A stretch of 43,337 bases of DNA from positions 6,735-50,071 of the forward strand of contig JABSRB010000040.1 of NCBI GenBank assembly GCA_013215375.1. Direction: 5' to 3'. Below are positions 7,921-29,440 of the stretch, one piece after another. Within the stretch, counting starts at the first letter, position 1, and every line of letters starts with the position of its first letter. The notes beneath the pieces are model-generated. The model was not told where the DNA came from and did no database searches. It was given only the letters and a program-made list of their open reading frames with translations. The stretch is from Oceanospirillaceae bacterium. GTDB lineage: Bacteria > Pseudomonadota > Gammaproteobacteria > Pseudomonadales > Balneatricaceae. Position numbers and translations under genes: made by a program.

Positions 7921-7926
7921 TATCAT

Positions 7927-7968
7927 TCAAGCATTAGAATAAAGCGCAATATTCATTCTAATGCTTGA
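7927..7968. terminator. Bidirectional terminator hairpin
   Basis: TCAAGCATTAGAAT (7927-7940) and its exact reverse complement (7955-7968) form a 14 bp stem with a 14-base loop. It fills the 59-base gap between two convergent genes. There is no long T run, but the position and perfect stem support a shared terminator. Confidence 0.75.
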
Positions 7969-9451: not shown

Positions 9452-11824
9452 TTATTTTAATGAAAGCGGCGCCTGCACCAGTCTTTCAGTTTCATCAGTA
9501 ATGGTATATCCAAGAGCACAATACCCATTTTTTCGTCGCTTAAACATTCTTTGAAGAGTCGGTAATGCGCTATCCACATAATCATAGATAACAACTTTTA
9601 CCTTTCCTTCTGCTTGCCGGTGAATACGCCCGGCGTACTGAGTCAACGAGCCTTGCCAAGATATCGGTAGCGCAAGAAACAAGGTATCCAATTTAGGCAG
9701 GTCAAAACCCTCACCAATATATTTTCCTGTCGCTATCAATACTTGAGTGTTATCAAGAGTATCCATAGCGGCTTGACGCTCTTTAGCTTTCATTCCTCCA
9801 CGAAGTACTGCGCAGCTGATATTTTGACTCGCTAGTAGCTCTCCTAGTAACACAGCATGCTCTCGTCTTTGTGTCAGCACTATTGGATTTCGCTGCTCTT
9901 GTACAACCTTCACAATATCTTCAATAATCTGCTGATTGCGTGCAGTATGGGTCATTAACCAATGATATACATCAGCGATATGCACTCTAGTTTCCGACTG
10001 TGTTAATGCCAAAGGCGGAGAATGGCATAGGACTTTGGCGATCACGCGTTGCTCAAATTCTGGCTGCCCCGCCGATGTGACGGTATGTCTAATCGGCCCT
10101 AATTGCATAAAGATAATCGGCTGATGCCCATCTTGCCTATAAGGGGTCGCTGTAACACCCAGCATATAGCGCGCATGAACTTCGTTCAGAAGCCGCTCAT
10201 AATTTGGCGCAGAAACATGGTGGCATTCATCAATAATAATTTGTCCATATTCAAACACTATTGGATCTACGGTATTATCCTTGCGGTTAATCAGACTTTG
10301 ATAAGTCGCAATATCTATCTGCCCACTTATTTTTTTCTTACCTCCTCCTATCACACCAATATCAGCGCCGTCTAAAAACATGCTTAAGCGCTCTTTCCAT
10401 TGATCCAACAATTGGCGAGTATGTACTAACACCAAAGTATTCACTTTACGTTTATAGATTAAACCAATCGCCGCAACGGTTTTACCAAAAGCAGTCGGGG
10501 CATGAAGCACACCCACATCGTGTTTGTTGAGTGCTTTTACCGCTAATTTTTGGTCCTTCCTCAACTCACCCTTAAAAACCAAATTTTTAAGTGGTTTACC
10601 AAGTCTACGTTTATCGTCAAGAACGACTTTAATAGATTGCCGCTCTAATAATGCCATCACCTCATCGACACAACCTCTGGGGAGTGACAGATAGCCTTTT
10701 TCAATATTGGCCAAACAAATAAAACGGGGAATGCCATTGGTTGAGAAACGTAGTGCTTGGGTTTTAAAAAACACTGGATTAGAAAAACTTGCTAACCGCT
10801 TTAACCTAGCGATTAGCACTTGTGGTAATTCAGCTACCGGCAGGTATATTTTATTTGCTAATACTAAGCTCAATTGTGCTGGACAACCGCTTAACAAATC
10901 TGTCTTGGCTGGAAGACTCTTTTCCCATGGCTTTAGCTCTGAATCGTCTATATTTTTATCTTCCTGTTTCTCTAGAAAATCATATAGCTGCTTACTGTCT
11001 AGCTTAGTCATCAAAGAAAGCGCCTCCCACTGATTAGAGAAAGGTCTAAATTCCTCATCGACGAACACTGAATGGCCCGCTTGTCTTGGACCATGCTGAA
11101 GAGGAAGTGCTATTAAATTACCAAAGCCACCTTCAGGCATCGTATCTTGATTGGGAAACAGCCGGTCATAAGAATCAAACGAAAGATAAGCATGTTGCTC
11201 CATCGTTTTATCGAGCAACGCAAAACCTAGCTTCCTAGCATCGCGAGCGAGAATTAACTCGTTAAAAAAGATCCAAAGATGTGCACCATTACCAGAGCGT
11301 GAAATTTCCACTGCACAGGGAATTGAGTAATCTCTACAGACTTTACGCAGAGCAATCACCGATAATTTCCAGTCAGATTTGTCAAAATCTACAGCAAGCA
11401 ACCAACATTTGTCGTTTGGTAACAAAGGATAAAGACCCACTGTGTGCTTACCAGCGAGATGATCAAAAAATATGCCTTCGTTGAGTGCTCGTAAAGAACG
11501 ATGTGCGCAATCGCCACATTTGATACGAGGTTTATTACAGATACCTGCCTGCCATTCATTGGCGCAAGCCACAGTATATCCACTGCGCCCCTGCTGGTTT
11601 TCCCAACGTAAAGCGAAAACATCTTCTCGCCCTTTAAAAAGACTGGAAAATAACTCAATTTTTTGCCGAGGGGATAATGGCACCGATGTGTAGCTAACAG
11701 AATGCACGACGATATTTCTAGTATCGAGCAGTAATTGTTTACGCGCTAATAGTTCGCTCTTTTTTTGCGCAAGGGCATGCAGTTGTTCCTGGATCGCTAT
11801 CAGTTCTTGATCTGGGGTATTCAC
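9452..11824 (-). CDS. TOTE-type primase-helicase
   Basis: The 790-residue protein combines an N-terminal coiled coil (about 5-32), an archaeo-eukaryotic primase domain (about 50-275) and a superfamily 2 helicase (about 415-760), the layout of TOTE conflict-system proteins. The primase carries a zinc-like CNKPRIKCGDC cluster, catalytic VDFD (145-148) and SGNGAHLW (177-184). The helicase has Walker A PTAFGKTV (443-450), DECH (532-535) and motif VI YAGRIHRQ. TOTE systems are thought to act on invading nucleic acid; no separate TOTE nuclease is seen next to it here, so its role is inferred. The start appears to be GTG. It lies 100 bases after the retron operon in the same direction. Confidence 0.85.
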   Translation of the reverse strand: MNTPDQELIAIQEQLHALAQKKSELLARKQLLLDTRNIVVHSVSYTSVPLSPRQKIELFSSLFKGREDVFALRWENQQGRSGYTVACANEWQAGICNKPRIKCGDCAHRSLRALNEGIFFDHLAGKHTVGLYPLLPNDKCWLLAVDFDKSDWKLSVIALRKVCRDYSIPCAVEISRSGNGAHLWIFFNELILARDARKLGFALLDKTMEQHAYLSFDSYDRLFPNQDTMPEGGFGNLIALPLQHGPRQAGHSVFVDEEFRPFSNQWEALSLMTKLDSKQLYDFLEKQEDKNIDDSELKPWEKSLPAKTDLLSGCPAQLSLVLANKIYLPVAELPQVLIARLKRLASFSNPVFFKTQALRFSTNGIPRFICLANIEKGYLSLPRGCVDEVMALLERQSIKVVLDDKRRLGKPLKNLVFKGELRKDQKLAVKALNKHDVGVLHAPTAFGKTVAAIGLIYKRKVNTLVLVHTRQLLDQWKERLSMFLDGADIGVIGGGKKKISGQIDIATYQSLINRKDNTVDPIVFEYGQIIIDECHHVSAPNYERLLNEVHARYMLGVTATPYRQDGHQPIIFMQLGPIRHTVTSAGQPEFEQRVIAKVLCHSPPLALTQSETRVHIADVYHWLMTHTARNQQIIEDIVKVVQEQRNPIVLTQRREHAVLLGELLASQNISCAVLRGGMKAKERQAAMDTLDNTQVLIATGKYIGEGFDLPKLDTLFLALPISWQGSLTQYAGRIHRQAEGKVKVVIYDYVDSALPTLQRMFKRRKNGYCALGYTITDETERLVQAPLSLK

Positions 11825-11924: not shown

Positions 11925-12596
11925 TTAAAAATATTCGTTATATTTCCATAAATGCTCTAATGCGGTTGAGTGTGCCAAGTCTTTTATTCTAATTAGTGCA
12001 TCGGATAGTGTCGTTTCTAAAAGTTCGGCTATTTCATTCGCGTCTTCATCAGCTAACAATTCCCAATACTCATCGGCGAATCGCTTCTCTCCAGCAATAG
12101 CAGTTCTTCGAGAGTTCTCCAACGTACTATCGCCGTCTAAATTAAAGATCGTTATCGTATTATTTGCGATTTCACTATCTTGTACCGTTAACTTTGTTAT
12201 CGCCCTAACTTTTCCTGAATTAAGAAATATTAAAAAATCTCCCGAGTTCTGTACATCAGGTTTACACACTTTATTCAAATCTATTTTTTTAGCTGCTAGT
12301 GAATCATCCTTATGGTTCCCGCAACGATTAGGGTTATTACAGGAGCCAAAAATATTAGCCCAAGTAAATGTCAGCGTAGGGTCTTTTGACCTTTGAATAA
12401 AATGCTCAATATGTCTTTTTTTGTTATCTTCAGGTATTACACACTCGCAATATGCACAATAACCGCGTTGCATATCATTTAATTTTACCCAAATATCATT
12501 TGTTAGATTATTTATAGCAATTACAGACCAATTATCTTGCCCATGCTTAAAGCGAGTCAAACACGCAGGGGCATTACCTCTAAGTAACTTCCGCAT
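11925..12596 (-). CDS. ptuB: PtuB-like HNH nuclease of retron
   Basis: The 223-residue protein is an HNH nuclease, the effector of a Septu-type module. It has Cys pairs in GYCAYCECV (C47, C50), the HIEHF core (62-66), and the second zinc pair in GSCNNPNRCGNHKDD with the N of ANIFGS between. It starts 5 bases after the ATPase stop, so it is the last gene of the RT-ATPase-HNH operon. In retron Eco7 (Ec78), PtuA and PtuB are kept inactive by the retron RT-msDNA and are released when phage disturbs it; in Eco7 the pair acts on tRNA-Tyr as I recall. Target here is unknown. Confidence 0.85.
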   Translation of the reverse strand: MRKLLRGNAPACLTRFKHGQDNWSVIAINNLTNDIWVKLNDMQRGYCAYCECVIPEDNKKRHIEHFIQRSKDPTLTFTWANIFGSCNNPNRCGNHKDDSLAAKKIDLNKVCKPDVQNSGDFLIFLNSGKVRAITKLTVQDSEIANNTITIFNLDGDSTLENSRRTAIAGEKRFADEYWELLADEDANEIAELLETTLSDALIRIKDLAHSTALEHLWKYNEYF

Positions 12597-12601
12597 GTGA
12601 A

Positions 12602-14239
12602 TTATGAACCTCTGAGCCTTCTTACCTTTTGTTTGAATTCCTGAACTCTAATATCACCACGGATCTTGATGATTTCGGGATGGCCTTCGCCGAAGTGCTG
12701 AATAAGCTTATCAAACAGTGATACTCCTCCTCTGGTATTCCATTTGTTTTCAGCTACTAAGACTGAGTAATCTGCAAGCCAACCTGCCTCATCAACCAAG
12801 GGAACAGAAAATGTACCCATGATTTGCTCTAAAACGTCAGAACTACTTACTCCTTTGGTTTGATGCTGGGGTACATCAATAGAAACAAGTCCACTATCAT
12901 CAAACCGGAGAATTCGAATACACTCTTTATCAACGGTAGATAATACTTGAGGGCTATGAGTTGTAACGATGAATTGAAGGTTAGGGAACGTAGTTTGTAG
13001 CCTTATTAGAATTCCTTGTTGCCATTTGGGATGGAGGTGTAACTCTATCTCATCAATAATAATTATCCCATGTCCATGCAAAGGATTATCAGCATCAGGA
13101 TTTAAAGTAACTAACCCTCTAGCTAAATCTCCCGTCAAAGCGACTAACGTCTTTTGACCTAGTGATAGCTGAGATATATTTACTTTGTTGCCAAAATTTT
13201 CCACTAGTAACCGGGGGTTCCCTGAACTACGATCAACTTCTAAATTTTTTATATTAGGTACTACTGCTTCAATCGCACTTTTCACAAAGCTAAGATGGCG
13301 TTGGTACTTCGTCGAGGACATTGTCTTTATTAAGCTAGCCAATTCTTCTTTTTTTACATTTAATTTAGCTGTAAACGGATCATTTTCAGGCAGTTCTTTA
13401 CCTTCATACACATCTTCAATCATTTGCTGTGCAATAGATATTTGCTCTTTAAGCCCCCTTACTTCTTTCGTATTTTCACCTTCAGCCCGATTCACCAACT
13501 GTATGTGAAGCTCTGAAAAGTCATCAAGAGTAGAGTTACCTTTTACAGCTCCCTTTAAAGTAGCAAAACGGTTACCAGTCGAGTCATCTGAAGCCTTTTC
13601 CGGAACAGCAGTAGGTAACTTAATATTAGACCGCTCAGCTGGGTAAAAGGCTAGTAAAGGTATTACCATTGACGAATTCTTAGCTGTTAGCCGGTACATA
13701 GACGCAAATTGCTTGATGGCTTTAACCTCACCAGACTGACTACCTTCATAGCCCTCAACAGCTTGCGCAAGTGAGGCCTCAAATCGGTTTGCTTTATCAA
13801 GCTGGAACTTACCTGTTATTTCAGCATAGTCATCTGAATTAACGTTGATATCAGTAAGTGTTAAAAAATTACCATTTACGTCAGCCCTTACAAGGTTATG
13901 ATTAAACCATGAAAAAACTTTGGCTATTGCCTCTGCAATACTCGTTTTTCCTGCACCATTATCGCCTATAATGACAGTGATACTATCTGAGAAATCAATA
14001 TTAAGCTTTTTAAAACGCCTAAACTCAGTGAGTTCAAAAGACTTCAGTCGAATTTTTTTGCCAATAAGATTTTTTTCAAGCTGCTGGTAATACTTTTGAG
14101 ACAGCTCTTCATTTTTATCAACATACTTTCCTTCAGCATAATACTCATGTAATTGAAGCTGGGAGCGTAATATACCTTTTTCGGCATTTTGAATTAATGG
14201 CTTAATTTTTTTAGTATGATTTTGAGATGACTTAGTCAT
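12602..14239 (-). CDS. ptuA: PtuA-like ATPase of retron
   Basis: The 545-residue ATPase partners the HNH protein. After a helical N-terminus with a Sel1-like stretch (LQLHEYYAEGKYVDKN), the ABC/SMC-like core starts at about residue 62. Walker A is GDNGAGKT (92-99), the signature is SLGQKT, Walker B is IIIIDEIELHLHP and the H-loop is VTTHSPQVL, all intact. A helical insertion rich in charged residues lies between about 235 and 320. It overlaps the reverse transcriptase gene by 8 bases, giving a coupled operon in the RT-ATPase-HNH order of Septu-associated retrons. Confidence 0.88.
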   Translation of the reverse strand: MTKSSQNHTKKIKPLIQNAEKGILRSQLQLHEYYAEGKYVDKNEELSQKYYQQLEKNLIGKKIRLKSFELTEFRRFKKLNIDFSDSITVIIGDNGAGKTSIAEAIAKVFSWFNHNLVRADVNGNFLTLTDINVNSDDYAEITGKFQLDKANRFEASLAQAVEGYEGSQSGEVKAIKQFASMYRLTAKNSSMVIPLLAFYPAERSNIKLPTAVPEKASDDSTGNRFATLKGAVKGNSTLDDFSELHIQLVNRAEGENTKEVRGLKEQISIAQQMIEDVYEGKELPENDPFTAKLNVKKEELASLIKTMSSTKYQRHLSFVKSAIEAVVPNIKNLEVDRSSGNPRLLVENFGNKVNISQLSLGQKTLVALTGDLARGLVTLNPDADNPLHGHGIIIIDEIELHLHPKWQQGILIRLQTTFPNLQFIVTTHSPQVLSTVDKECIRILRFDDSGLVSIDVPQHQTKGVSSSDVLEQIMGTFSVPLVDEAGWLADYSVLVAENKWNTRGGVSLFDKLIQHFGEGHPEIIKIRGDIRVQEFKQKVRRLRGS

Positions 14240-15164
14240 TTGGCTCCTCTACTATTTTAAGTATTAACTCAGCTGAATACTTTTTTATCAGTGATTGCAT
14301 AAATAGTGGCTCAATATGTTTAGCAAAAGCTAATAAACCTCTAAGATGAAGTCTATCTTCTTTATCGGACTTCTTAAGTTTAACTTGGTGAACTAAGTGC
14401 TTGATATACCTTTTTCGTTCTCGTCCCAGCGATAGCTTACCATTATTATTTATAGTGATACCTGTTACATGCCTATTATGTGCCTTGGATGAGAATCTTG
14501 TTTTTTTTCTGTTGATTCTTATGGTGCCGCCAAATAAAGTAACTAGCTGCTCTTTGACTAGTAATGGTAGGTCGAAGAGAATATCTTTATGATTCGTTGA
14601 AAAGGTTAAATCGTCAGCATATCTTGTATATACGATCTCTTTTTCTAGGCATATTTGGCTAAGATGGCAATCAAAATGATACATGAAAAAGTTGGAGACC
14701 AGAGGAGAGCTCGGCGCGCCAATGCTTAAAACAAGGGGGCCTCCTGATTTTTTGCTCGGGCACCAAAAGAGTAACTTTTCTAGAGTTTGCCTGTCCAGTT
14801 CAGAAGGTAGTGGATGTATCGATTCCCATACTTTCCAAAAAACATGACTAGAAATCGAATTGAAAAAATTTTCAAAATCCAATTTCAATAAATACCTGCT
14901 TTTTTGGTGAGCAGCTGCATTTTCTTTAATACTAATGCCTTGACGATATGCCATTGCAGAGTGATGAATAGGTAGCTTTTGTATTTCTAGATATTGACGC
15001 TGATATCTTTTCAGCTCTTTAGAAGGCTGGGCAATGACTCTATGTCCAGATGTGCGCTTAGGTATAGTATAAACTTTATATTTTTTGGGGGCATTAAGCA
15101 GAAAACGAGATACCTCCTCTTCACTCCGGTTAAGTCCTAATGATAATTGCTTAACTAAACTCAT
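14232..15164 (-). CDS. Retron reverse transcriptase
   Basis: The 310-residue enzyme reverse-transcribes part of the ncRNA encoded just upstream to make msDNA. Retron hallmarks are present: NAAAH (82-86, the NAxxH motif), LDFENFF (95-101), GAPSSPLVSN (149-158), the catalytic YADD (182-185), and HVTG (232-235) of the retron region Y. Length is typical. It is the first protein gene of the operon with the PtuA- and PtuB-like genes, and GGGGATAGGG precedes the ATG. The motifs plus the matching msr-msd structure make this call strong. Confidence 0.93.
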   Translation of the reverse strand: MSLVKQLSLGLNRSEEEVSRFLLNAPKKYKVYTIPKRTSGHRVIAQPSKELKRYQRQYLEIQKLPIHHSAMAYRQGISIKENAAAHQKSRYLLKLDFENFFNSISSHVFWKVWESIHPLPSELDRQTLEKLLFWCPSKKSGGPLVLSIGAPSSPLVSNFFMYHFDCHLSQICLEKEIVYTRYADDLTFSTNHKDILFDLPLLVKEQLVTLFGGTIRINRKKTRFSSKAHNRHVTGITINNNGKLSLGRERKRYIKHLVHQVKLKKSDKEDRLHLRGLLAFAKHIEPLFMQSLIKKYSAELILKIVEEPND

Positions 15165-15207: not shown

Positions 15208-15355
15208 GAACCCTTTACTAAGAGGAAGCGATAAGATCGCAACCTGATTGAGGTACGAGATCAGGTTGCGATCTTATCGCAACCATAAAGCCGTTCAATA
15301 AATTAGAGTCTGGCTAAACACCCGACTAGACGAATTCGTCCTAAGCTAAAGAGTT
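15208..15355 (-). ncRNA. Retron msr-msd RNA
   Basis: The element reads leftward. The a1 arm AACTCTTTA (15355-15347) pairs with a2 TAAAGGGTT (15217-15209), 9 bp with one G-T. Directly after a1 comes GC, so the G at 15346 in TTTAGC is the likely branching guanosine. A palindromic GACGAATTCGTC and an AGTC/GACT stem-loop follow, as expected for msr. The msd part is a perfect 21 bp stem (15280-15260 with 15248-15228) and an 11-base loop. The order a1, msr, msd, a2, RT is the canonical retron arrangement. Exact ends are inferred. Confidence 0.85.
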
Positions 15356-15963: not shown

Positions 15964-15968
15964 TGTAT
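15964..15968. repeat. Target site duplication, left copy
   Basis: TGTAT directly precedes the transposon terminus TGTAGTCGAG. The identical five bases follow the right terminus at 29378-29382. Five bases is the Tn7 duplication length. Confidence 0.92.
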
Positions 15969-16114
15969 TGTAGTCGAGTAATAAAGTATCATACTAAATG
16001 AGTCTGCAACGCCCATGCTATCGTTTCAAAAACAGCCTATAAATTAATAAAGTATCATACTATAATATTACAATGACTAAATCCGCATACTTTTAAGTAA
16101 TAAAGTATCATACT
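15969..16114 (+). repeat. Left end with three TnsB-type sites
   Basis: Three 20-base sites, all ending TAATAAAGTATCATACT, lie at 15976-15995, 16042-16061 and 16095-16114 in the same orientation, separated by 46 and 33 bases. Three spaced sites over about 150 bases is the organisation of the Tn7 left end. Confidence 0.92.
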
Positions 16115-16285
16115 AAAATCGATAATTCTCAATCAAGATCATCATGATTAGTTAAAAAAAGCAGTCAATGAAAAGCTGTATGACATTAAGATTCTTCTAA
16201 AGCTTTAAAATGTGGAGACAGGGCTCCTCACGAGCTAGCTAGTGTTCTTATTTATGGCGCGAACCCTATTAAGCTCTGACGATAA

Positions 16286-16381
16286 TATAGACACATCAAA
16301 AAGACTCAACTTGCTGAATTAGCGGAAGTAAAAACATCAGATATATCAAAAATGGTGAGCATCATTCATTGGGCATCCTAG
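16286..16381 (+). pseudogene. Remnant of an HTH protein
   Basis: An open frame without a start codon encodes KTQLAELAEVKTSDISKMVS, which reads like the helix-turn-helix of an Xre/Cro repressor. It begins after a stop at 16283 and ends at TAG 16379. It lies in the 424 bases between the left-end sites and the methyltransferase gene and may be the decayed controller of that block. No other gene is visible in this spacer. Confidence 0.45.
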
Positions 16382-16538
16382 ATAGAATTCTAGGACTCTT
16401 GAAATAGACGATCCGAACTAAACCAAAAAAGTAGCCTTTTCGTACGTGTTACAGGGCTTTATAGAATAAAAATGTGTTTAAATATACAATATATTGATAA
16501 TTAACTAATACTGTACAGATAGTGGCGAGCATCTTTAA

Positions 16539-17819
16539 ATGGGAACAAATAAAATTACGTTTAATTCGTTTTTTGCAGGTATAGGAGGGTTTGATTTAGG
16601 GTTTGAAAATTCAGGTTTAACTCCATTGCTTCAATGTGAAATAAATCCTTTTTGTCAAGATGTGCTTAAAAAGCACTGGCCTAAAGTACAATTATTTGAT
16701 GACATAACTACAATAAAGCCTAATGAAATACCTCTAGCAAATATTTGGTGTGGCGGGTTTCCATGCCAGGATGTATCTGTAGCAAGAGGATCTAAAGGTA
16801 GACAAGGATTAAAGGGGAAAAATTCTGGATTATTTTTCCCCTTTTTTCAGCTGATAACAGAACACCAGCCGGAAATTGTATTACTTGAAAATGTAATGGG
16901 GCTGTTGAGTTCTCATAATGGACAAGACTTCAGGACAATCTTAGAATCTTTTAACAATCAAGGTTACTCAGTAGCTTGGAGAGTAATGAATAGTCGTTTC
17001 TTTGGTGCTCCTCAGTCTAGGACAAGAGTTTTTATTTGTGCGAGTAAAAATCAACCTCTTTTGGCGATGAAAACTTTATTTGAAACTGAAGGTGGGCCTA
17101 AATTAAAAAATCTACGCAAAGCATTTCTTGACGTAAGTGAATGTAGTAAATCGGGGGCTAAGGTGGCACAGATAGCATACTGCTTGGCAGCTACTTCTGG
17201 TCGGCACACTGGTACAGACTGGAGTAGAACTTACGTATCTTATCAATCAAAAGTCAGAAGACTGATCCCTCTAGAATGCGAAGGAATACAAGGATTTCCT
17301 AAACATTGGACTGATCTTGACCCAAATACCACTTCAGATATAGACAGTGACAGATACCATGCATTGGGAAATGCAGTTTCAGTTCCAGTTACCCAATGGA
17401 TAGCGAAGAGGCTAAAAAAGCATTTTACTAATGCCAGTGATATTGAACCTTTACCTAGTGACTTTACAAACTATATAATAAACAATTTTGGAGATGCAGC
17501 CAATTCACCCAGGGTACAAAATTTAGATGAGCTTCACTTTGATGTTACTGATAAAGCAAACAAACTAAAATGGCTTAATGGTGGCTTTATACATAACGGA
17601 ATCTGTATAGATTTCAAAGCATCTGACGCTCCGATGAAAGTGGTCTCTAAAAAGTTAATTGATGTTATTTACCCAGAGAAAGTAGATAGTAAATATTATT
17701 TAAGTTCAAATGCTGCTAAGGGTATTCTTCGTCGTGTATACAGCCAAAATAGGAAACTATTTGCTCCGATGCACGATGCGTTAGTTCAATTATCATCGAC
17801 AACAGACAACGTCACATAG
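16539..17819 (+). CDS. C5 cytosine DNA methyltransferase
   Basis: The enzyme should methylate cytosine at C5 in a specific site. Motif I FAGIGGFDLGF (12-22), the catalytic PCQ with C76, ENV (117-119), QSRTRVF (159-165) and motif X GNAVSVPV (274-281) are all intact. The recognition region between about 170 and 235 is short. After residue 300 there is an unusual 120-residue extension, with GGFIHNGICIDFKASDAP and YYLSSNAAKGILRRVYSQNR, that standard Dcm-type enzymes lack. It is the first of four rightward cargo genes; the next starts 16 bases later. AT-rich coding suggests transfer. Confidence 0.9.
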   Translation: MGTNKITFNSFFAGIGGFDLGFENSGLTPLLQCEINPFCQDVLKKHWPKVQLFDDITTIKPNEIPLANIWCGGFPCQDVSVARGSKGRQGLKGKNSGLFFPFFQLITEHQPEIVLLENVMGLLSSHNGQDFRTILESFNNQGYSVAWRVMNSRFFGAPQSRTRVFICASKNQPLLAMKTLFETEGGPKLKNLRKAFLDVSECSKSGAKVAQIAYCLAATSGRHTGTDWSRTYVSYQSKVRRLIPLECEGIQGFPKHWTDLDPNTTSDIDSDRYHALGNAVSVPVTQWIAKRLKKHFTNASDIEPLPSDFTNYIINNFGDAANSPRVQNLDELHFDVTDKANKLKWLNGGFIHNGICIDFKASDAPMKVVSKKLIDVIYPEKVDSKYYLSSNAAKGILRRVYSQNRKLFAPMHDALVQLSSTTDNVT

Positions 17820-17835
17820 CAACTAGGTAATTAAA

Positions 17836-19494
17836 ATGAAATTTGTTGTCATCCGGTTGGGAAAAGATAGCGTTCCAGATATTGTGAAAATTGACTCCTA
17901 CAGGCATGGGTTAGAAAACCCTTACCTCTTCGATTTTACTTGCAAACAAGTAGAAGAAAGCATTGTTACTGATTTAGAGGTAGAGGATGTATTCGCATTT
18001 ATTTATCTTGGTTCCGATAATAATAAAGGTATACCAACGGTCTGGAAAAAAGGCTTAAGAGCCCTTGGTGTAATTCAAAAAATTACTGGAAGATTTTCAT
18101 TTCAATCAACGTGTGTCATCTCAATTAACGTACTAAGCATTTTTCCTTCTAGTTACAGCTCAATAACATTTTTAGAAAACACATCAGAATTATATAAAGG
18201 TTTTAGCAATTATCCTGTTATTGGTTTGCAAAGTTCAAGAAATAATGCGATCCAAAAAGTAAATGAATCAGAGAGGCAAGATACTAAAAGTCTAATTAAT
18301 GCGATCTCTATCATTACCCCAACATTTAGGTTTGACGTATCTAGATTTATTCCTCAATTAATTCCTCTGTTAGATAACGAGGATATTGAACTTGAAGGCT
18401 ATGAGACAGAAAGTGAAGAACTTGGTGAACTATTCGGATGGGGTAGTGAGTATCCGCTAAATACTGTTTTGATTCGTACAGAGCAAAGAACTGTAAACAA
18501 TGTTGTAGATAGAATAATGCGACAAAGATTTAAATTAACGCCTGATTTTCAAAGAGATTTTGTCTGGAATATTACTAAACAATCTAAATTGATAGAATCG
18601 TGTTTGATGAGAATCCCTCTACCTGTTTTTTATGTAGCAGAAGATCAAGAAGGTAAGATTGTTGTTGTTGACGGCTTACAGCGACTTACCACCTTTGTAC
18701 GATATCTGAATGGCGAATTTGCTTTAAAAGGAATAGGCGAATCAAATTTAAGCGGCTTGAAATTTAAAGATTTACCATTGAAATTACAAGAAAGAATCGA
18801 AGATACTCAGCTAATCTTATATATATTAGACGAGAAGGCGCCAGAGAGGGCAAAGTTAGATATATTTGATAGGGTAAACGGCGGGACACCCCTAACACGA
18901 CAGCAAATGCGGAATTCTCTTTACAGCGGTGCAGGTACTAAACTGCTTAAAGATATGTCGAAAAAGAATATATTTTTACGATGTACAGGTAAAAGTCTTG
19001 ATACAAAATCTATGAGGGATAGAGAAGTAATTAATAGGTTCTTCGCATTCTACTTACTCAGTTACCAAAGTTATAAAGGTGATATGGATGAATTTTTAGC
19101 TAGATCTCTTAAAGTAATAAATAAGATGACTAGTCAAGAAGTAGAATCATTGGAAAATATTTTTGAGAACACTATATCTAATAACTTTAAAATTTTTGGC
19201 CCTCACGCCTTTAGAAAATCACTATTTTCTAAAGGAAACAATATACAAAGATCAGTGATTAATGTTGCATTATTTGACGTGTTTTCCATAGTCTTTTCTG
19301 ATATAACATTGAATGACTCGCCCGAGACTAAATTAGAGATAAAAGAATTAATTCGAGAACTCTACAACGATCCAGAATTTTATGATGCTATTACGATAGG
19401 TACGAACAGTACCAAGAAAGTTAACTATAGATTTTCAAAATTAATAAAATCACTCAGTGAGTATGATAATGTTACAAATTTTAAAAGTCAGTAA
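17836..19494 (+). CDS. DUF262 protein with extra N-terminal domain
   Basis: Residues about 205-420 are a DUF262 domain, the ParB-like nuclease family found in GmrSD type IV restriction: PDFQRDFVWN (236-245) and the hallmark VVVDGLQRLTT (277-287, usual form DGQQR, glutamine changed to leucine). A helical C-terminal part follows. The first 190 residues form another domain: VFAFIYLGSDNNKGIPTVWK followed by KGLRALGVIQKITG has the look of a PUA/EVE-like base-reader fold, but that is a guess. Sitting between a methyltransferase and an ATPase, it is the likely nuclease of the cargo. The DUF3696 gene start overlaps its end by 26 bases. Confidence 0.8.
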   Translation: MKFVVIRLGKDSVPDIVKIDSYRHGLENPYLFDFTCKQVEESIVTDLEVEDVFAFIYLGSDNNKGIPTVWKKGLRALGVIQKITGRFSFQSTCVISINVLSIFPSSYSSITFLENTSELYKGFSNYPVIGLQSSRNNAIQKVNESERQDTKSLINAISIITPTFRFDVSRFIPQLIPLLDNEDIELEGYETESEELGELFGWGSEYPLNTVLIRTEQRTVNNVVDRIMRQRFKLTPDFQRDFVWNITKQSKLIESCLMRIPLPVFYVAEDQEGKIVVVDGLQRLTTFVRYLNGEFALKGIGESNLSGLKFKDLPLKLQERIEDTQLILYILDEKAPERAKLDIFDRVNGGTPLTRQQMRNSLYSGAGTKLLKDMSKKNIFLRCTGKSLDTKSMRDREVINRFFAFYLLSYQSYKGDMDEFLARSLKVINKMTSQEVESLENIFENTISNNFKIFGPHAFRKSLFSKGNNIQRSVINVALFDVFSIVFSDITLNDSPETKLEIKELIRELYNDPEFYDAITIGTNSTKKVNYRFSKLIKSLSEYDNVTNFKSQ

Positions 19495-20632
19495 TTTTAA
19501 ATGCTTTGAAAATTTAGAATTACCAATTACTGCTTTAACATTACTATCTGGTTTTAATGCCACAGGTAAAACATCTTCTATACAACCATTACTTTTATTA
19601 GCTCAAAGTATAAAAAGTACGGGTTCAATAAATAAATTATCACTAAACGGTAATTTAATAAAACTAGGTACACCTGGAGAGGTTTTATATGAAAACTCTA
19701 AATCTAAATCTATTATATTAGGAGTAAAAACAGCGGAAGCTGAGATTTCTTTTGAGTTAAACTTAGAAAAACGTAACCCAAATAGATCTTGTGACATTGA
19801 CAGTATTAATTTTTTAGATGTTGAAACCAACTCCCTTCTTAAATTAAATAATGTAAATGAATTGCTCTCCGTGGAAGAAAAATCCGCTTCTTCTCTGATC
19901 AGAAAATTGAAAAATATTATTTATTTAGGAATTTCTCGTTTCGATTATGAAGAACTATACCCATCGCCAAATGAACTTGATCTAGTCAATGCAGATGTCG
20001 GAACAAAAGGACAATATGCTCCATGGCACTTTAGTGAATTCGGCGATCAAGACATCCCTATCTCGAGACACCATAAAGACGAAAGTGCTCCAACTCTCAG
20101 AAAGCAGTTGATCGCTTGGTTTGATTATATATTTCCAGGTTCAGAAGCAAATTCATACCATGTGGATGGTACTCCTCTAGTAAAACTAGAACTCCGTAAT
20201 TCTAGTACAGGTGAATGGAGACGACCATCCAATATAGGATATGGATTATCTTATATTTTTCCTATTTTAGTTGCCTGCCTGTTAGCAGAAAAAGATCAAA
20301 TAATTATTTTAGATAGCCCCGAGGCACATATTCACCCAGAAGGGCAATCAAAAATGGCACAGTTTCTCTCTATGATAGCTGCGTCAGGTGTTCAATTAAT
20401 AATTGAAACACACAGTGATCATATCTTGAATGGGGTTAGGCTAGCGGCCATGAAAGAAACGATAAAGCCTAAAGATATCACTATCCATTTTTTCAATAAA
20501 ATCCCGCGTAGTGAACAAGACGTTGCACAAATCACATCCCCCTCAATTGACCACCAAGGCAATATAAGTGATTGGCCTGATGGTTTTTTCGACCAAACAG
20601 AAAAAGATTTATCTTTGCTATCAGGATGGTAA
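19469..20632 (+). CDS. DUF3696 AAA/ABC-type ATPase
   Basis: This 387-residue protein is an OLD/SMC-like ATPase of the DUF3696 group. It opens LKVSNFKCFENLELPI, with Walker A GFNATGKT (28-35). A GYGLSYIFPI segment stands where the ABC signature is expected, then come Walker B IIILDSPEAHIHPEGQ and H-loop ETHSDHIL, and the final SDWPDGFFDQTEKDL is typical of DUF3696. I start at the ATG at 19469, the third of three in-frame options; the gene overlaps the DUF262 gene. DUF3696 ATPases are common partners of DUF262 nucleases in defence islands. Confidence 0.85.
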   Translation: MLQILKVSNFKCFENLELPITALTLLSGFNATGKTSSIQPLLLLAQSIKSTGSINKLSLNGNLIKLGTPGEVLYENSKSKSIILGVKTAEAEISFELNLEKRNPNRSCDIDSINFLDVETNSLLKLNNVNELLSVEEKSASSLIRKLKNIIYLGISRFDYEELYPSPNELDLVNADVGTKGQYAPWHFSEFGDQDIPISRHHKDESAPTLRKQLIAWFDYIFPGSEANSYHVDGTPLVKLELRNSSTGEWRRPSNIGYGLSYIFPILVACLLAEKDQIIILDSPEAHIHPEGQSKMAQFLSMIAASGVQLIIETHSDHILNGVRLAAMKETIKPKDITIHFFNKIPRSEQDVAQITSPSIDHQGNISDWPDGFFDQTEKDLSLLSGW

Positions 20633-20639
20633 TGTAAAT

Positions 20640-21596
20640 ATGAACTGGTTTATTAACGATCTTTCCTTCAGTGGGCAATATTCAACTAATGATGAGTTCA
20701 TTGATTTTTTACAGAAGTTATTAAAACTTAGAAACGACAATGCTGTGATCAAATCAAATTTATATTGCTCAAGAATTCTTCCACAGCTTAAAGTTGTTCG
20801 AAACAATACACTACGTGATGTTGTTAACGCGTCCAAAAACAAATTAATTAAAGGTCAACTTCTCGAATGGCTAAATAAAAAAGGCCCTTTTTGGGATGAT
20901 GACCGGCAAACTATATCAGATGATGACTTTGAGCTGTTTGATACTGTCATTACAGATCAAGGAGCGGCTGAAGCCGCAAGACAAACCATATTAGGAAAAA
21001 ATGCTTCCCTATTCAGCTTAGAGAACGCTTCTCCTTGTTGTTCTCATACCCCATTAAAAATAATGCAAATTCTAGATGATCTTAGCCAAGTACCTCATGA
21101 CATAACAAATCACTGGAAACTCAGCCAACTAATTGAACATTCAGACACTTTAAACATTGAGGCCGTAAATTGGCCACAACTTATAGAACAAGTAGCAGAA
21201 CAATATTCACATTTAATTATTAGTGATACGATATTAAAAAGCCTACTTTCCCAGCCATTTTCTCCTATTATATCTCGAAGAGTTTCCGTATTGCTCTCGA
21301 TATTGAACCAGTTAATCGGTAGTAGAAATGAGAATGGCGAGTATACCCCAGCAACTCATGCCATTTTTGAAAAGCACTTCGCTGGCGATAGGCCTCTATT
21401 CACTGATGAGTCAGTCTCTAATAAAAGAACATTTAAAAAACAATTAACTTTTTCTGACTCGCATAATCAAAATATTTTTTGCTCTTGGCATGGAAAGATA
21501 AGTCACAGATCTTTCAGACTCCATTTTGAATTCCCTTTACCTGCTACTAAAAAAAGAATGGAAATTTCATATATTGGGTGCAAACTTACCAAATAA
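20640..21596 (+). CDS. Unrecognised cargo protein
   Basis: I cannot assign a domain to this 318-residue protein. It starts 7 bases after the ATPase stop, so it belongs to the same transcript; an in-frame start at 20568 would overlap the ATPase and is less likely. Visible motifs are WFINDLSFSGQY near the start, LLEWLNKKGPFWDDDRQ around residues 76-92, VITDQGAAEAAR, and a basic C-terminus with IFCSWHGKISHRSFRLHFEF. I have seen similar N-termini encoded beside DUF3696 ATPases, so it is probably an obligate partner. It converges on tnsE with only 3 bases between the stop codons. Confidence 0.7.
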   Translation: MNWFINDLSFSGQYSTNDEFIDFLQKLLKLRNDNAVIKSNLYCSRILPQLKVVRNNTLRDVVNASKNKLIKGQLLEWLNKKGPFWDDDRQTISDDDFELFDTVITDQGAAEAARQTILGKNASLFSLENASPCCSHTPLKIMQILDDLSQVPHDITNHWKLSQLIEHSDTLNIEAVNWPQLIEQVAEQYSHLIISDTILKSLLSQPFSPIISRRVSVLLSILNQLIGSRNENGEYTPATHAIFEKHFAGDRPLFTDESVSNKRTFKKQLTFSDSHNQNIFCSWHGKISHRSFRLHFEFPLPATKKRMEISYIGCKLTK

Positions 21597-21599
21597 ATA

Positions 21600-23210
21600 T
21601 TAAAAATTCAAAATTTCCAACCGCCTCAAAAGACGATCAGACCATCCATTGATATCAGCAGGGTCAATCACACCTCGCGTTTTTGATTGAGGGTGAGGTA
21701 TATTCTGATGATTTTCAGTACCACACAATCTATCAAAGATTTTATTGGGCCAGCGTAACGAGCCTCGAAGTAATTGTTCTTCAATATTTTCTAGTGAAAA
21801 ATCAAGCGCCTCATCCTGTTTAAGCTTGATTAACTTTGTTGATAGAGGCTTCTCTGCATCGGAAGTGTCTACCTCCAAAAGATGATAAATATTACTATCT
21901 ATCATTAGCTTCACGACTGCCAAGCACCTAGGATTACCATCCGTCGACAATACGTGCTTTTTGCATTTACTAATTTTAGGTAGTTTTCGCAAAGGGTATC
22001 TCTCAACACGACAACCATGCCGTTCATGCAGCGCGTTTAGCATCTCAAAAAAGCTGTCAAACTTATTAAGATATAAATGCACATCATCTGTCTGATCATC
22101 CAAGGTATCCCACTGTGCACTTGGTAGAACTCCGGAAATGTCTGACTCATCAGCACTCACATCGATTGAGGCTTCACCTTCAACACTCTCATCAGCTACG
22201 CCAGCACTAACCAACTGCTGCTTTTCTGTTACTCGATTTGTTTTAAAAGCATTAGCAAAACCAACTTCTACCGCTATTGCTTCTATTGCCACTCCAGGCT
22301 TCTCAAAATCTGTTGCTTCATCATTATGTAAGTTATGTTCATTTGGACGTTCAGCACCTGCTATAGAGCCTCCTGACCCGCTTCCACTAACAGACTGTTT
22401 GAACTTAGGATGATAGAAACTAATTTCAGAGGGAATATCTGCCGGTATATCCGTGATGGCATGGATTTCATATACAAACATTGATTTCGTTTCAGTATCT
22501 TTCCAACCATTAACAACCAAGCGAGTATTTTGAAGGGGTGGAGGATTAAATGAAAAATCCCAGAACCTGTAGTTACTCCCTTTTGGCTCATACCCTTCTA
22601 ATAGCTCTCTTTGGCTTATGCTTTCAAAAGATCGCCGAGCCGCTTCATCTAGCAGTACCCAACTTAAGAATCTGCGACTTGCGCTCTCGTTAAAATACGA
22701 TAAATGATAATTACCTGAAGCTAGTACATTAATCTGTATTTGGCCATCTATCCATTGGACGTCAAATTCTTCTGCCAAGCAGCCGTTAACCAACGATGCC
22801 CTTGAGAGATAAGCATCGTGAAAAAACAATGCCCTCGCTAATTCAAACTGAGGTAAATATATTTTCCATCCATTATCAATCGTAAAACAGAAGCAAAACT
22901 GCTCTTTGTCACTCACATGTTTTTTATCTTGGTATCCAGGGAAGTTAGCTATTTTTTCCACTGCCCAATTTTTGGTATTACCAATTCTAAACGCTTGTTG
23001 TAAGCCTGCTCGCTCATAGTTCTCTGTTGGTTTAATAATTCGTTGTCTTGCCAAGATCGGAGCATTAGATAAGCGCAGAGAGCTTTTGTCTTGCTTAGGA
23101 GCAAAGACTAAATTTATTGACCAGGCACTGCCATCTATTCGCCGATATAGTGACTTAATACCTTGTATCTTTAAATTGTCAGGCAAGTGAGAAAATCTAA
23201 AATTATCCAT
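21600..23210 (-). CDS. tnsE: Transposition protein TnsE
   Basis: In Tn7, TnsE directs insertion to conjugating plasmids and discontinuous replication by binding 3' recessed ends and the sliding clamp. The 536-residue length matches Tn7 TnsE (538). The conserved C-terminal domain is seen in RCLAVVKLMIDSNIYHLLEV and SLRWPNKIFDRLCG. A Ser/Asp/Glu-rich low-complexity stretch (about residues 270-370) separates it from the N-terminal part. It is the last gene of the operon and overlaps tnsD by 8 bases. Its presence suggests the element can also move through plasmids. Confidence 0.92.
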   Translation of the reverse strand: MDNFRFSHLPDNLKIQGIKSLYRRIDGSAWSINLVFAPKQDKSSLRLSNAPILARQRIIKPTENYERAGLQQAFRIGNTKNWAVEKIANFPGYQDKKHVSDKEQFCFCFTIDNGWKIYLPQFELARALFFHDAYLSRASLVNGCLAEEFDVQWIDGQIQINVLASGNYHLSYFNESASRRFLSWVLLDEAARRSFESISQRELLEGYEPKGSNYRFWDFSFNPPPLQNTRLVVNGWKDTETKSMFVYEIHAITDIPADIPSEISFYHPKFKQSVSGSGSGGSIAGAERPNEHNLHNDEATDFEKPGVAIEAIAVEVGFANAFKTNRVTEKQQLVSAGVADESVEGEASIDVSADESDISGVLPSAQWDTLDDQTDDVHLYLNKFDSFFEMLNALHERHGCRVERYPLRKLPKISKCKKHVLSTDGNPRCLAVVKLMIDSNIYHLLEVDTSDAEKPLSTKLIKLKQDEALDFSLENIEEQLLRGSLRWPNKIFDRLCGTENHQNIPHPQSKTRGVIDPADINGWSDRLLRRLEILNF

Positions 23211-24711
23211 ATTTTTCCATCACATAGTTAAAAACACTATTAGTTACTGGCCTTAAACGCTCTTCACTTAAACCTGATTGGCGAAGTACTTTCCACTTTA
23301 CTATCGGCTCTGATAAACGTGTGAGTCTTATAATCGTTCTAGTCAATCTTCTTGTTTGATATTCACTAACACCTTCTGAGTACTTGTTGAAAAACTGATT
23401 ACATAGTGGCAGCTTATGCATATTTTTTTCAACACTAGCAGGGTTGCTGATTTGAGATAGGTACCAGTTCTTGGTTAATCTAGGAGCACTCAAATTTTCG
23501 CAAATCTCATTTTTAATTCCTAACATGGCCTTGGCTATCACTCGGTCACGCTTCGGCCAATCCACTCTTTTATTAATAATCCTTCTATCTCTTTTATATT
23601 TATTGTTAATGGCTAACAACCAATCATGATCATGCCTATAAAGCCAAGCATATAGTGCTTTTTGTCTCTGTCGCGCTTGCTTTGGACCTATTTTTCGGAC
23701 ACTTTGGAACCAAAGATTTCGCTGGGCTGAGCTTGCATTATTTTCTGACTTTTTTTCCCTATTTACGAAAACGTTCCTCTCTTTAGGATAGTGAGCTACT
23801 TGTTCAAGCACCTGATTTATTGACCAATTGTTATCCAACAGACTATTAAGTAAAACAATGTGCTCTAGGTAACAGAATGATTTTCTATGTTTTCGGCATA
23901 TAGCCCGTAGCCAGCAAGACTGCTCGTCATGTACTCTAAATCCATGCGTATCTAGCCAAATTTTGCCCCATGTAGACAATACCTGCTCTTTTATTGCCGG
24001 ATAGCAAATATTTTCACCATTATTAAAACCACATTGGCGTATCAGCGTCTTATAATATTGCGTCCATTGATTGAGTGTGGGGGAAACTTGTGCCCTACGA
24101 GACAAGAGTTCTATTACTTGATGCGCAATTAACAAGGTGTTTAAGGTTGGTGTTTTTTGATGAACTAGAGCACATATCTTGGGTGTTGCTGGCAGATATT
24201 CATGTCGATGAAACGAATGTCTTGGTATTTGCGTTGAAATGGCTTGTCCGTGAAGCAAGCAACACTCAACCCCAAAGACTTGCCATGACCTCTGCCAATA
24301 GCACTCGCCGAGCTTATCCAATTGAAGCTGCACACATTGAGGGCAATATCTCAATGTATCAAATTGCGGAAGCTTGGAAGCCGCTGCGCCAAGGGATAAA
24401 TAAACAGATCCCTTAGAGCTGCTTCTTAACCATTCCATACATTGTTGTCGCCGTTTTTCGGGTATAAACGGCGCATAGAGAGGGAAAAGAGTGTGACGAT
24501 AAATCAGTTTCTCTACTGAGATATTCCTGGCAATGTAGTGCTGTGCTATTTTTTGTAAGTGGCTAGGGAAGTCAATCGTTGCCACCACTTTTCTATCATT
24601 ATAGACCTCATCTAATAGCTCTTTTGGCGACTGAATACAAAAATGAACTCTCGCTCTCGCAATAGTGCTATAAACCAATTCTTCTTCGTAGGGCAAAGGA
24701 AAACCCAGCAT
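23203..24711 (-). CDS. tnsD: Target selector TnsD (TniQ family)
   Basis: TnsD binds the 3' end of glmS and brings in TnsC, fixing insertion just downstream of the gene. The N-terminal TniQ domain is clear: FPLPYEEELVYSTIARARVH, DEVYNDRKVVATIDFPSHL, YRHTLFPLYAPFIP. A zinc site follows in RYCPQCVQLQLDKLGE and the nearby CCLLHG. I start at the ATG at 24711, whose next residues LGFPLPYEEEL align with the start of Tn7 TnsD and which overlaps the tnsC stop as TAATG; an in-frame start lies at 24729. The element's position exactly at attTn7 confirms its role. Confidence 0.94.
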   Translation of the reverse strand: MLGFPLPYEEELVYSTIARARVHFCIQSPKELLDEVYNDRKVVATIDFPSHLQKIAQHYIARNISVEKLIYRHTLFPLYAPFIPEKRRQQCMEWLRSSSKGSVYLSLGAAASKLPQFDTLRYCPQCVQLQLDKLGECYWQRSWQVFGVECCLLHGQAISTQIPRHSFHRHEYLPATPKICALVHQKTPTLNTLLIAHQVIELLSRRAQVSPTLNQWTQYYKTLIRQCGFNNGENICYPAIKEQVLSTWGKIWLDTHGFRVHDEQSCWLRAICRKHRKSFCYLEHIVLLNSLLDNNWSINQVLEQVAHYPKERNVFVNREKKSENNASSAQRNLWFQSVRKIGPKQARQRQKALYAWLYRHDHDWLLAINNKYKRDRRIINKRVDWPKRDRVIAKAMLGIKNEICENLSAPRLTKNWYLSQISNPASVEKNMHKLPLCNQFFNKYSEGVSEYQTRRLTRTIIRLTRLSEPIVKWKVLRQSGLSEERLRPVTNSVFNYVMEKYG

Positions 24712-26360
24712 TAGAAATTTTGTACCCAATCATGCAAATCAAACAGTGCTTCGCGTTCTGCTAAATCTTTGTGGATAGATTCGTCTTTAGACTGAGAAAA
24801 TACAAACCTTAAATCATCCGATGCAAGTGTGTGCCAATTTTCTTGTTTTATTTTTACCTGCTTAGGTGCTTTAATCTTAATCGGATGACACCCACTTTCT
24901 TCATACCATTCAATAATCACTTTATTCATTTGAGGCATACTTAGGTTGGGCATTTCTCTAAATATTTTTTCAATGATAGGCACTAACAGCTCAGACTGAT
25001 ATCCCATGCCAACCAACAAGTTATACATTTTTTTAGCTTGAGCATTACCACCAAATTTATCTAATTCTGACTCTTGGTGAAGATGCTCTTCTATTATGGA
25101 CCGTTTGAGATCTAATAATCGCTTGTCGATATCAGGTATGTGCAAATCAGAATATTTAGCGATGAGCTCCACATCATTAGACCTTAAAGCTTCTAGCATA
25201 GGGTGCACTGGCTTAAGTTCATCTTTATATACTTGCCTCAATAAGCTGGCAGAAAGCCTTTCCACGCCACTAGCTATGGCTCGCAATTGTGCTAAAACAA
25301 ACAGCTTAACAACAATATCTAGCACCCCTTGCGATAACTCAAACCAACAACTTCTGATTTCTTCACTGATATCTTCATCTCTATTTTTAAGCCATTGATA
25401 TTTCCAGAGCTTATCAGTGAATGCTATCCACTCATTTCTTGATTTTTGCGTATCCGGCAGCTCCCTCATTGGCTCCCAAAACATCGATCCAAATCCTACA
25501 CTGCGTCTAGCCGATTGCAATTCCAGTTCAAAAATAGGTCTAGCTTTAGGTGTACCAACCAGTATGACAGGCACACCCACCGTATTTACTAATTCGACAA
25601 AGAATTCCAGCATGTTTTCTTGCCCGCCGGAATGCTTCCTACTTAAGCGCTGAATTTCATCAATAACGAGAATACCGATAGCCCGATGTGTTGCAACTTG
25701 GCTCATTAACGCTAACAACGTCGGCTCGCCATGCCTCTTGCGGCTGTATTGTCGCTCATATTCAGTATTTAAAACTCGATCAACTTCTCTAAAAAAATTG
25801 ATACACAAACTCTTTAGGGAGCCATTATGGGGGCATTCTATTTTGAGGTAAGTCAGCTGAATGAAATTACGTTCTTCATGAAAAACTACTTGAGGGTAGC
25901 ATGCTAAAATTCGATTTACTGTTGATGTTTTACCGCTGCCAGAACAACCGATAAGCGCTAAGCTTCTTGCTGTAGATCTTGTCTGCTTAAATCTGAAGCT
26001 TTCTAAATCACCACTCATTAACCTTTCATAGCCATTTTGCATATGATAATTTAAAGAGCCATCGCTTAAACTTCGTCCGACGTAACCTTGGCGAATCATT
26101 ATTGATATTTTCGCTTCTAACTGGATATGGTTAGAAATTGGCTGAAAAAAATCATCCAGCAGCCCTGCGACAAGGTGCGCCCGTAGCCGCCCTTCTGTAT
26201 AAACATCCTGGTAAGAAAAACTGACCTTGCCCTGCAAACCTTTTTTTATCTGCTGTATTCCTAATACCGGAGGGAGTGCCTCGATAAACGGGTTATCTCT
26301 GTATTCATCAGTACCTGGATCCTGATATACAGCTCTCACAAAATATTCAGGTAATGCCAT
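24711..26360 (-). CDS. tnsC: AAA+ regulator TnsC
   Basis: TnsC links target-bound TnsD or TnsE to the TnsAB transposase and enforces target immunity through ATP hydrolysis. Walker A is GCSGSGKT (138-145) and Walker B is LVIDEIQR with VIDE at 232-235; GVPVILVGTPKARP is the sensor 1 region. The 549-residue length matches Tn7 TnsC (555). The protein overlaps tnsB by one base and tnsD by one base. Nothing key is missing, so the complex should be functional. Confidence 0.94.
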   Translation of the reverse strand: MALPEYFVRAVYQDPGTDEYRDNPFIEALPPVLGIQQIKKGLQGKVSFSYQDVYTEGRLRAHLVAGLLDDFFQPISNHIQLEAKISIMIRQGYVGRSLSDGSLNYHMQNGYERLMSGDLESFRFKQTRSTARSLALIGCSGSGKTSTVNRILACYPQVVFHEERNFIQLTYLKIECPHNGSLKSLCINFFREVDRVLNTEYERQYSRKRHGEPTLLALMSQVATHRAIGILVIDEIQRLSRKHSGGQENMLEFFVELVNTVGVPVILVGTPKARPIFELELQSARRSVGFGSMFWEPMRELPDTQKSRNEWIAFTDKLWKYQWLKNRDEDISEEIRSCWFELSQGVLDIVVKLFVLAQLRAIASGVERLSASLLRQVYKDELKPVHPMLEALRSNDVELIAKYSDLHIPDIDKRLLDLKRSIIEEHLHQESELDKFGGNAQAKKMYNLLVGMGYQSELLVPIIEKIFREMPNLSMPQMNKVIIEWYEESGCHPIKIKAPKQVKIKQENWHTLASDDLRFVFSQSKDESIHKDLAEREALFDLHDWVQNF

Positions 26361-29258: not shown

Positions 29259-29310
29259 AAAAAAACCGTTAGTCGTTAACTCATTACTTGAGAATAACGT
29301 TAACGGTTTT
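29259..29310 (-). terminator. Hairpin with T tract abutting tnsA start
   Basis: On the minus strand AAAACCGTTA (29310-29301) pairs with TAACGGTTTT (29271-29262), with an inner GTTA/TAAC and CTCA/TGAG stem, and is followed by TTTTTTT up to the tnsA ATG. A possible promoter, TTGCAT (29319-29314), 17-base spacer and TATTCT (29296-29291), would start transcription inside the hairpin. This arrangement would stop read-through from glmS but not transcripts from the element's own promoter. The promoter is weak and inferred. Confidence 0.6.
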
Positions 29311-29377
29311 AGTATGCAACTTTATTACTTAGTATGATACTTTATTACTAGGTATGATACTTTATTACTCAACTACA
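29311..29377 (-). repeat. Right end with three abutting TnsB-type sites
   Basis: Three 20-base sites abut one another at 29351-29370, 29331-29350 and 29311-29330; the innermost is diverged (TTGCATAC in place of TATCATAC). The terminus is TGTAGTTGAG read inward from 29377. Densely packed sites are the Tn7 right-end organisation, and in Tn7 TnsB binding here represses the tns promoter. Confidence 0.92.
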
Positions 29378-29382
29378 TGTAT
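29378..29382. repeat. Target site duplication, right copy
   Basis: TGTAT follows the right terminus and matches 15964-15968 exactly. It covers positions 21 to 25 after the glmS stop codon, the standard Tn7 insertion point. Confidence 0.92.
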
Positions 29383-29402: not shown

Positions 29403-29440
29403 CTATTCCACTGTCACCGATTTCGCCAAGTTCCTCGGCT
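29403..29440 (-). other. attTn7 TnsD recognition region in glmS
   Basis: The last dozen codons of glmS, encoding the conserved PRNLAKSVTVE end, are where Tn7 TnsD binds. The insertion 21-25 bases beyond the stop shows that the site was used here. The site itself is unchanged, so glmS is intact. Confidence 0.8.

Follow-up and report, generated by a model that had tools for sequence, protein, structure and literature searches.

The Menshen operon, its added methyltransferase gene and reader domain

The DNA analysed here, 43,337 nucleotides of contig JABSRB010000040.1 from an Oceanospirillaceae bacterium (the window, whose positions are used throughout), carries a Tn7-like transposon with four genes on the forward strand next to its left end. 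The first (16539..17819, 426 residues) encodes a C5-cytosine DNA methyltransferase (PF00145, E 2.4e-59) and lies 16 bases ahead of the second (17836..19494, 552 residues), whose product matches the PADLOC model for NsnA (PDLC03877, E 2.3e-119; residues 152-542 against profile positions 21-381 of 385) and, as its only Pfam family, DUF262/GmrSD_N (PF03235, E 3.3e-21), with a DGLQR motif at residues 279-283. Overlapping it follows the gene for NsnB (19457..20632; PDLC03878, E 6.8e-104), an ABC/SMC-type ATPase with the Walker A motif GFNATGKT, matches to AAA_15 and AAA_21 (PF13175, PF13304) and a C-terminal DUF3696 (PF12476, E 2.1e-15), and then that for NsnC (20568..21596; PDLC03896, E 1.4e-102; residues 25-342, profile 1-318 of 319), the presumed effector, which has no Pfam match. 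The mechanical call opens gene 3 with the GTG at 19457; its start is probably the ATG at 19469, and that of gene 4 probably the ATG at 20640, 7 bases after gene 3. Since the four are the only long coding-strand open reading frames (ORFs) between the left end, whose last repeat stops at 16117, and tnsE at 21600, the operon is the cargo, just as an earlier reading made from the letters alone (the sequence-only reading) had described it, spacings included.

The domain calls of that reading (methyltransferase, DUF262, DUF3696) agree with Pfam, and its hunch of a likeness to Menshen (NsnABC) was a good one: nsnA, nsnB and nsnC are contiguous on one strand and stand in Menshen order. Judged by these profile matches genes 2-4 are the known Menshen core, and gene 4, left unnamed before, belongs to the named family NsnC. 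To speak of a new defence system was thus too strong for genes 2-4, and we rejected a wholly new system because NsnABC match PADLOC models; the named system accounts in order for these three genes and leaves the methyltransferase outside. Passages of PMC10952713 describe Menshen as anti-phage, with resistance lost in the absence of its DUF262 gene, and mention a TOPRIM domain for one Menshen component; neither NsnB nor the other window proteins match TOPRIM in Pfam. The same source states that DUF262 proteins hydrolyse nucleotides and that in SspE recognition triggers the nucleoside triphosphatase (NTPase), which activates a nuclease domain. Since the window NsnA has no DUF1524 match, its DUF262 is likelier to serve as a nucleotide switch than to be the nuclease that had been suspected.

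What the sequence-only reading did not mention is an extra N-terminal domain on the gene 2 product, which we call the reader. It takes up residues 1 to about 185 (17836..18390, forward strand), the PADLOC NsnA model matching only from residue 152 onwards, and an alignment of 12 relatives (A6) gives it the motifs RLGKxS and LGSDNxKG..TxWxxGxxA. The methyltransferase in turn has a conserved C-terminal extension (about residues 300-426, alignment A3), and P75-C76-Q77, E117-N118-V119 and Q159/R161/R163 are invariant in the four sequences of alignment A5. Searches for the reader in plasmid and phage collections led nowhere, as did its PHROGs matches (two families, each matched by a single one of the 12 members, best E 0.04) and a plasmid search with the methyltransferase at E 1e-30; among phages 74 records match the methyltransferase, none over 80% of its length.

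Recurrence of the methyltransferase-reader pair

When four reader sequences (A4) were run against 84,980 species, each represented by one genome, 69 pattern matches came up, of which 9 encode a relative. Together with the viral contig L003 and the locus L016/L043 (both found by NsnA), L047 (found by its methyltransferase) and the window, these make 13 distinct loci; L045, L046 and L068 lie on the same contig as L003, which was counted once, and an ORF of genome G301 (L058, reader profile E 4.4e-4) was dropped as it is without reader motifs by eye. Each of the 13 has, directly upstream of the reader and on the same strand, a methyltransferase of one subfamily, and 12 of these loci, the window included, were reached by NsnA or reader queries, not by the methyltransferase. 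Named hosts belong to Pseudomonadota, Bacteroidota, Bacillota and Actinomycetota. A methyltransferase profile (A5, built from the window, L003, L016 and L047) scores the 11 intact copies that adjoin a reader (four of them in the profile) at 577-810 bits, the two pieces of a split copy (L062) at 341 and 249 bits and a copy cut by its contig end (L063) at 271 bits; nine readerless viral methyltransferases (L048-L056, with L052 and L053 alike) reach at most 267 bits and another methyltransferase of the window's genome (L002) 52.

Menshen loci with NsnA and NsnB, yet no reader, served as controls. NsnA matched 59 genomes, the window's included, and the regions of 19 others were taken (G698 among them); NsnC matched four other genomes, two of which were opened, and an NsnA match was found in 183 plasmid records (three also by NsnC), eight of which were opened. 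From 24 annotated loci we dropped ten with a DUF262 match and no NsnB (L071, L073, L074, L078, L079, L081, L082, L085, L086, L087); the other 14 and L088-L092 are the 19 controls (8 plasmid records, 1 viral contig and 10 from genome samples around the window), with flanks of 337 to 6994 bases per side and only 556 upstream in L044. Within these flanks none of the 19 has a methyltransferase profile match at E 1e-3, and none has a reader, as against a methyltransferase in 5/5 reader-bearing Menshen loci. This supports the sequence-only reading where it took the methyltransferase for an addition to Menshen, and chance neighbourhood is rejected on 13/13 reader loci versus 0/19 readerless ones. One of the dropped loci (L078) shows a weak methyltransferase match (28% identity), and at the far edge of L011 another site-specific DNA-methyltransferase is listed about 7 kb downstream of Menshen.

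The pair has two kinds of partner. In 5/13 loci the reader is fused to NsnA and followed by NsnB and NsnC: the window, L003, L059 (Vibrio lentus), L060 (Vibrio bivalvicida) and L066 (Mucilaginibacter galii). The set of methyltransferase, long NsnA, NsnB and NsnC thus recurs on a contig of a phage, in two species of Vibrio and in one Bacteroidete. The partner is McrB-type in the other 8/13, fused to the reader in seven and preceded by a separate reader ORF in L067. AAA_5 scores above the Pfam cut-off in L047 and L061 and just below it in L062 and L063; the latter two continue with DUF2357+PDDEXK_7 nuclease proteins, and in L061 the gene after the McrB-type protein is RE_LlaJI (E 8.8e-38). L043, L064, L065 and L067 were called McrB-type by blastp, in which L043 was itself one of the references on account of its ATPase sequence GAPGTGKS. 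On these assignments the cassette is coupled to two unrelated effector machines, Menshen and McrBC/LlaJI-type ATPase-nucleases. The McrB-type protein of L047 (4656-7748, 1030 residues) has some 500 unassigned residues between the reader and its AAA_5 domain.

Several copies sit among mobile genes: genes for a terminase, a portal protein and an endolysin are found on the phage contig L003/L068, a tail gene lies 2.8 kb upstream of the cassette in L059, an integrase gene comes right after it in L060, and L043 adjoins a transposase gene. Methyltransferase and reader behave as a portable cassette, and that they form a conserved unit is, by sequence comparison, well supported.

In a tree of the NsnA core (23 rows; L076, a near-copy of L072, omitted) the reader-bearing rows are not one clade, and forcing one costs 99 log units (p-AU, from the approximately unbiased test, 5.4e-8). 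The single clade is still rejected without four long-branch rows (p-AU 1.7e-5) and also by the NsnB tree (24 rows, long branches kept; p-AU 3.5e-10); L066 groups with readerless Menshen of another branch. In the reader and methyltransferase trees, the latter drawn without the split L062 and the cut L063, the McrB-type L043 stands beside the window's group and L066 outside both. As a single clade of reader-bearing Menshen fits neither protein tree, the most economical history has the cassette entering Menshen on two separate occasions, and at least two such events are probable.

NsnC varies too. By hhalign, a profile built from 11 NsnC proteins of the window type matches NsnC of L066 in its N-terminal part alone (residues 1-155, probability 87.6); that L066 protein ends in a YoeB-type toxin (PF06769, residues 203-282, 41.5 bits, cut-off 27). 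The profile aligns with L070 over residues 3-158 (96.3), L072 over 66-325 (90.2), L075 over 125-326 (86.6), L077 over 160-324 (65.0) and L092 over 196-272 (77.1), and has no credible alignment to L069, L080 or L088-L091. Scanning 16 other third genes gave none above a Pfam cut-off, and searches with NsnC of the Protein Data Bank and of viral contigs both led nowhere. By eye, the NsnC C-terminal motif HxK...RxHF...YIGxK appears RelE-like. We read NsnC as a probable effector whose C-terminal part is exchanged. The third gene of one readerless Menshen (L080, 3542-4423) has a sub-threshold C-terminal match to the 'Cytotoxic' family (E 0.1).

Proposed protection by methylation and its alternatives

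The account we lean towards, and think somewhat probable, sees the cargo as a modification-protected Menshen in which the reader reads unmethylated sites and a toxin-like effector answers. We infer a chain in which the C5-methyltransferase would methylate a specific site throughout the host genome for self protection and the NsnA reader would bind the same site if unmethylated, for instance on incoming phage DNA; binding would change the state of the DUF262 nucleotide switch of NsnA, NsnB as ABC-type ATPase would pass the signal on, and NsnC with its exchangeable, toxin-like part would stop the infected cell or destroy nucleic acid. LlaJI, as passages of PMC1459862 describe it, has two 5-methylcytosine (5mC) methyltransferases and McrBC-like R1 and R2, restricts unmethylated DNA and owes its specificity to R1 alone, and McrB relatives, according to parts of PMC7680126, vary in their N-terminal domains, which recognise different targets. 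By analogy with both, the reader would recognise unmethylated copies of the site that the methyltransferase modifies. Protection is likelier than dependence since the cassette is shared with McrBC/LlaJI-type loci and LlaJI restricts unmethylated DNA, and for the same reason the modification-dependent restriction proposed by the sequence-only reading probably has the wrong sign. A wider formulation, which we hold more tentatively and would not call probable, is a kind of restriction-modification that joins a portable cassette, with its unnamed site-reading domain, to Menshen as a toxin-delivering NTPase complex in the place of an endonuclease; the unmethylated site would trigger abortive infection, and the cassette would be exchanged with McrBC/LlaJI engines.

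A number of points weigh against this account. By sequence the reader matches neither a Pfam family (0/12 members at E 10) nor a solved structure (no credible match in the Protein Data Bank), so DNA binding itself is part of what we infer; a B3 domain is reported to mediate binding by LlaJI.R1 (passages of PMC7680126), and sequence comparison revealed no kinship of the reader to it. The methyltransferase of L062 is split into two ORFs (6710-7935) before an open reader-ATPase gene, which would be costly for a strictly protective role; this may be an assembly error or a real break. The unit is also rare, as the reader profile found only the window copy and the rejected L058 in 369 class, 398 phylum and 116 family genomes. 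Our 19 controls were hand-picked and are partly related (L072, L075 and L076 among close relatives). The reader and methyltransferase trees are weaker (p-AU 0.006 and 0.029) and have long L066 branches, and with only five Menshen loci that carry the cassette, four of them in one clade, L066 is the sole locus behind a second joining; one gain with several losses may be the alternative history. It is this alternative, along with a reader of no shown kinship to a DNA-binding domain, that made us slightly lower the weight on the mechanism.

Should the reader turn out to have a modified-base-reading fold, this would fit a modification-dependent (type IV-like) Menshen, where the reader would recognise phage DNA by its cytosines, methylated or modified in another way, and the methyltransferase would have a different task, for example to mark incoming DNA or to counter other host restriction. 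Such a scheme has precedents: modified cytosine is the target of the DUF262 proteins GmrSD and BrxU (passages of PMC10952713), and in other McrB proteins N-terminal domains recognise methylated bases (parts of PMC7680126). A system that depends on 5mC would, however, turn on its own host when encoded next to a 5mC methyltransferase, provided that both use the same sites; nevertheless the two genes are paired in 13/13 loci, and the methyltransferase is found in 0/19 of the readerless Menshen loci examined; to our minds the scheme is unlikely.

Less likely again seems a regulatory or addiction pair, whose reader would sense DNA methylation and so cause cells that lose the element to die, with phage defence secondary. 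The methyltransferase of L067 (6312-7925) is fused to an N-terminal Cro/CI-type helix-turn-helix (HTH; PF13443, E 2.1e-17), and an HTH on the methyltransferase is found in self-regulating restriction-modification methylases, a likeness that also counts for the protective account. This fusion speaks for the idea, as do the positions of the window, L003, L059 and L060 in or beside mobile elements and of L043 beside a transposase gene. Against it stands the description of Menshen as an anti-phage system that needs its DUF262 gene (passages of PMC10952713), albeit addiction and defence are not exclusive. Finally, an ordinary Menshen and an independent orphan methyltransferase brought together by the transposon can nearly be set aside: Tn7-like transposons do carry a great diversity of defence systems (PMC8649781), but the gene set recurs outside Tn7 (L003/L068, L059, L060, L066) and the methyltransferase accompanies the reader, not Menshen.

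Were the protective account true, the self/non-self logic of restriction-modification could be detached from one killing machine and fitted to a different one, the reader domain would be a handle for finding such systems, and the Menshen trigger could be tested by methylating DNA. As to that trigger, the literature passages hold no answer that we found; here a candidate sensor can be named, the NsnA-fused domain that travels with one methyltransferase subfamily.

The Tn7-like carrier and related systems

The element around the operon spans 15969-29377. A 5-bp duplication, TGTAT, flanks it at 15964..15968 and 29378..29382. Its left end (15969..16117, forward strand) begins with TGTAGTCGAG and has three spaced 22-bp repeats (at 15977, 16043 and 16096; family D1), presumably TnsB sites as in Tn7, and forms inverted pairs (I1, I2, I5, I6) with 29300-29377. 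The right end (29300..29377, reverse strand; D4, I1, I2) has three tandem 20-bp repeats (29309-29368) and closes with CTCAACTACA, the two termini being mutual inverted copies (TGTAGTCGAGTAATAAAGTATCATAC at 15969, GTATGATACTTTATTACTCAACTACA ending at 29377). A CRISPR-like array or operators were considered for the repeats at 15977-16117 and rejected, as these match the opposite transposon end. On the reverse strand follow TnsE (21600..23210; TnsE_C, PF18623, E 1.4e-41) and candidate tnsD (23203-24729), tnsC (24711-26360), tnsB (26360-28447) and tnsA (28431-29258), which we name from gene order and size and whose proteins have no NCBIfam match. The transposon stops 25 bp from the end of glmS (29403-31226, reverse strand; TIGR01135, E 1.3e-252), whose ORF ends at 29403. 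Carriage by a transposon, as the sequence-only reading had it, is thus borne out by Tn7-like ends and the 5-bp duplication around the operon.

Between the left end and the methyltransferase gene, positions of about 16290-16380 look, by eye only, like a degraded HTH regulator. Outside the element, immediately to its left, lies a retron of the I-A/Ec78 kind (11925-15164, reverse strand) with reverse transcriptase (PADLOC RT_I-A, E 2e-144), PtuA (NCBIfam, 637.6 bits, cut-off 500) and PtuB (205.5, cut-off 150); upstream of its reverse transcriptase gene a perfect 21-bp inverted repeat with an 11-base loop (15228-15280) is possibly part of the retron RNA gene. It adjoins a TOTE-type primase-helicase (9452-11824, reverse strand; AEP-TOTE, E 5.3e-96, with ResIII and Helicase_C). 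Both were rejected as additional cargo, lying left of the transposon end and its duplication.

With the Tn7 family the carrier shares TnsE_C, terminal inverted repeats and internal repeats at both ends, the 5-bp duplication and insertion at attTn7 beside glmS; it differs in cargo and end sequences. Among systems comparable to the cargo, methylation-associated defence (MADS) has a methyltransferase beside an AAA ATPase, as does the window. The genes, however, are different, the weak match of NsnB to MAD3 (41.7 bits) being far below the cut-off of 420. The type IV systems GmrSD and BrxU are alike in the DUF262 domain, whereas the window NsnA lacks a DUF1524 match and a cytosine methyltransferase is present. 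The LlaJI/LlaI/BsuMI type, going by passages of PMC1459862, resembles the window operon in setting a 5mC methyltransferase beside a multi-subunit, NTP-linked restriction arm with specificity in one subunit, and in L061 RE_LlaJI stands with the methyltransferase-reader cassette itself. LlaJI, though, has two methyltransferases where the window operon has one, and in place of the McrB-type ATPase and nuclease the window has NsnA-NsnB-NsnC. AAA_5, RE_LlaJI and PDDEXK have no Pfam match in the window's four genes, and membership of LlaJI or GmrSD was rejected as their defining parts were not found there by Pfam.

Closest is Menshen itself, with DUF262, an ATPase with DUF3696 and NsnC, all three in order. 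Passages of the Menshen literature that were searched make no mention of a methyltransferase-linked Menshen, and Li et al. 2025, outside that search, may describe the reader or the methyltransferase; as far as we have seen, the methyltransferase-reader form is a new variant. The PADLOC NsnA model has 385 positions and the window NsnA 552 residues, and whereas the 19 comparison loci lack methyltransferase and reader, the window operon has both.

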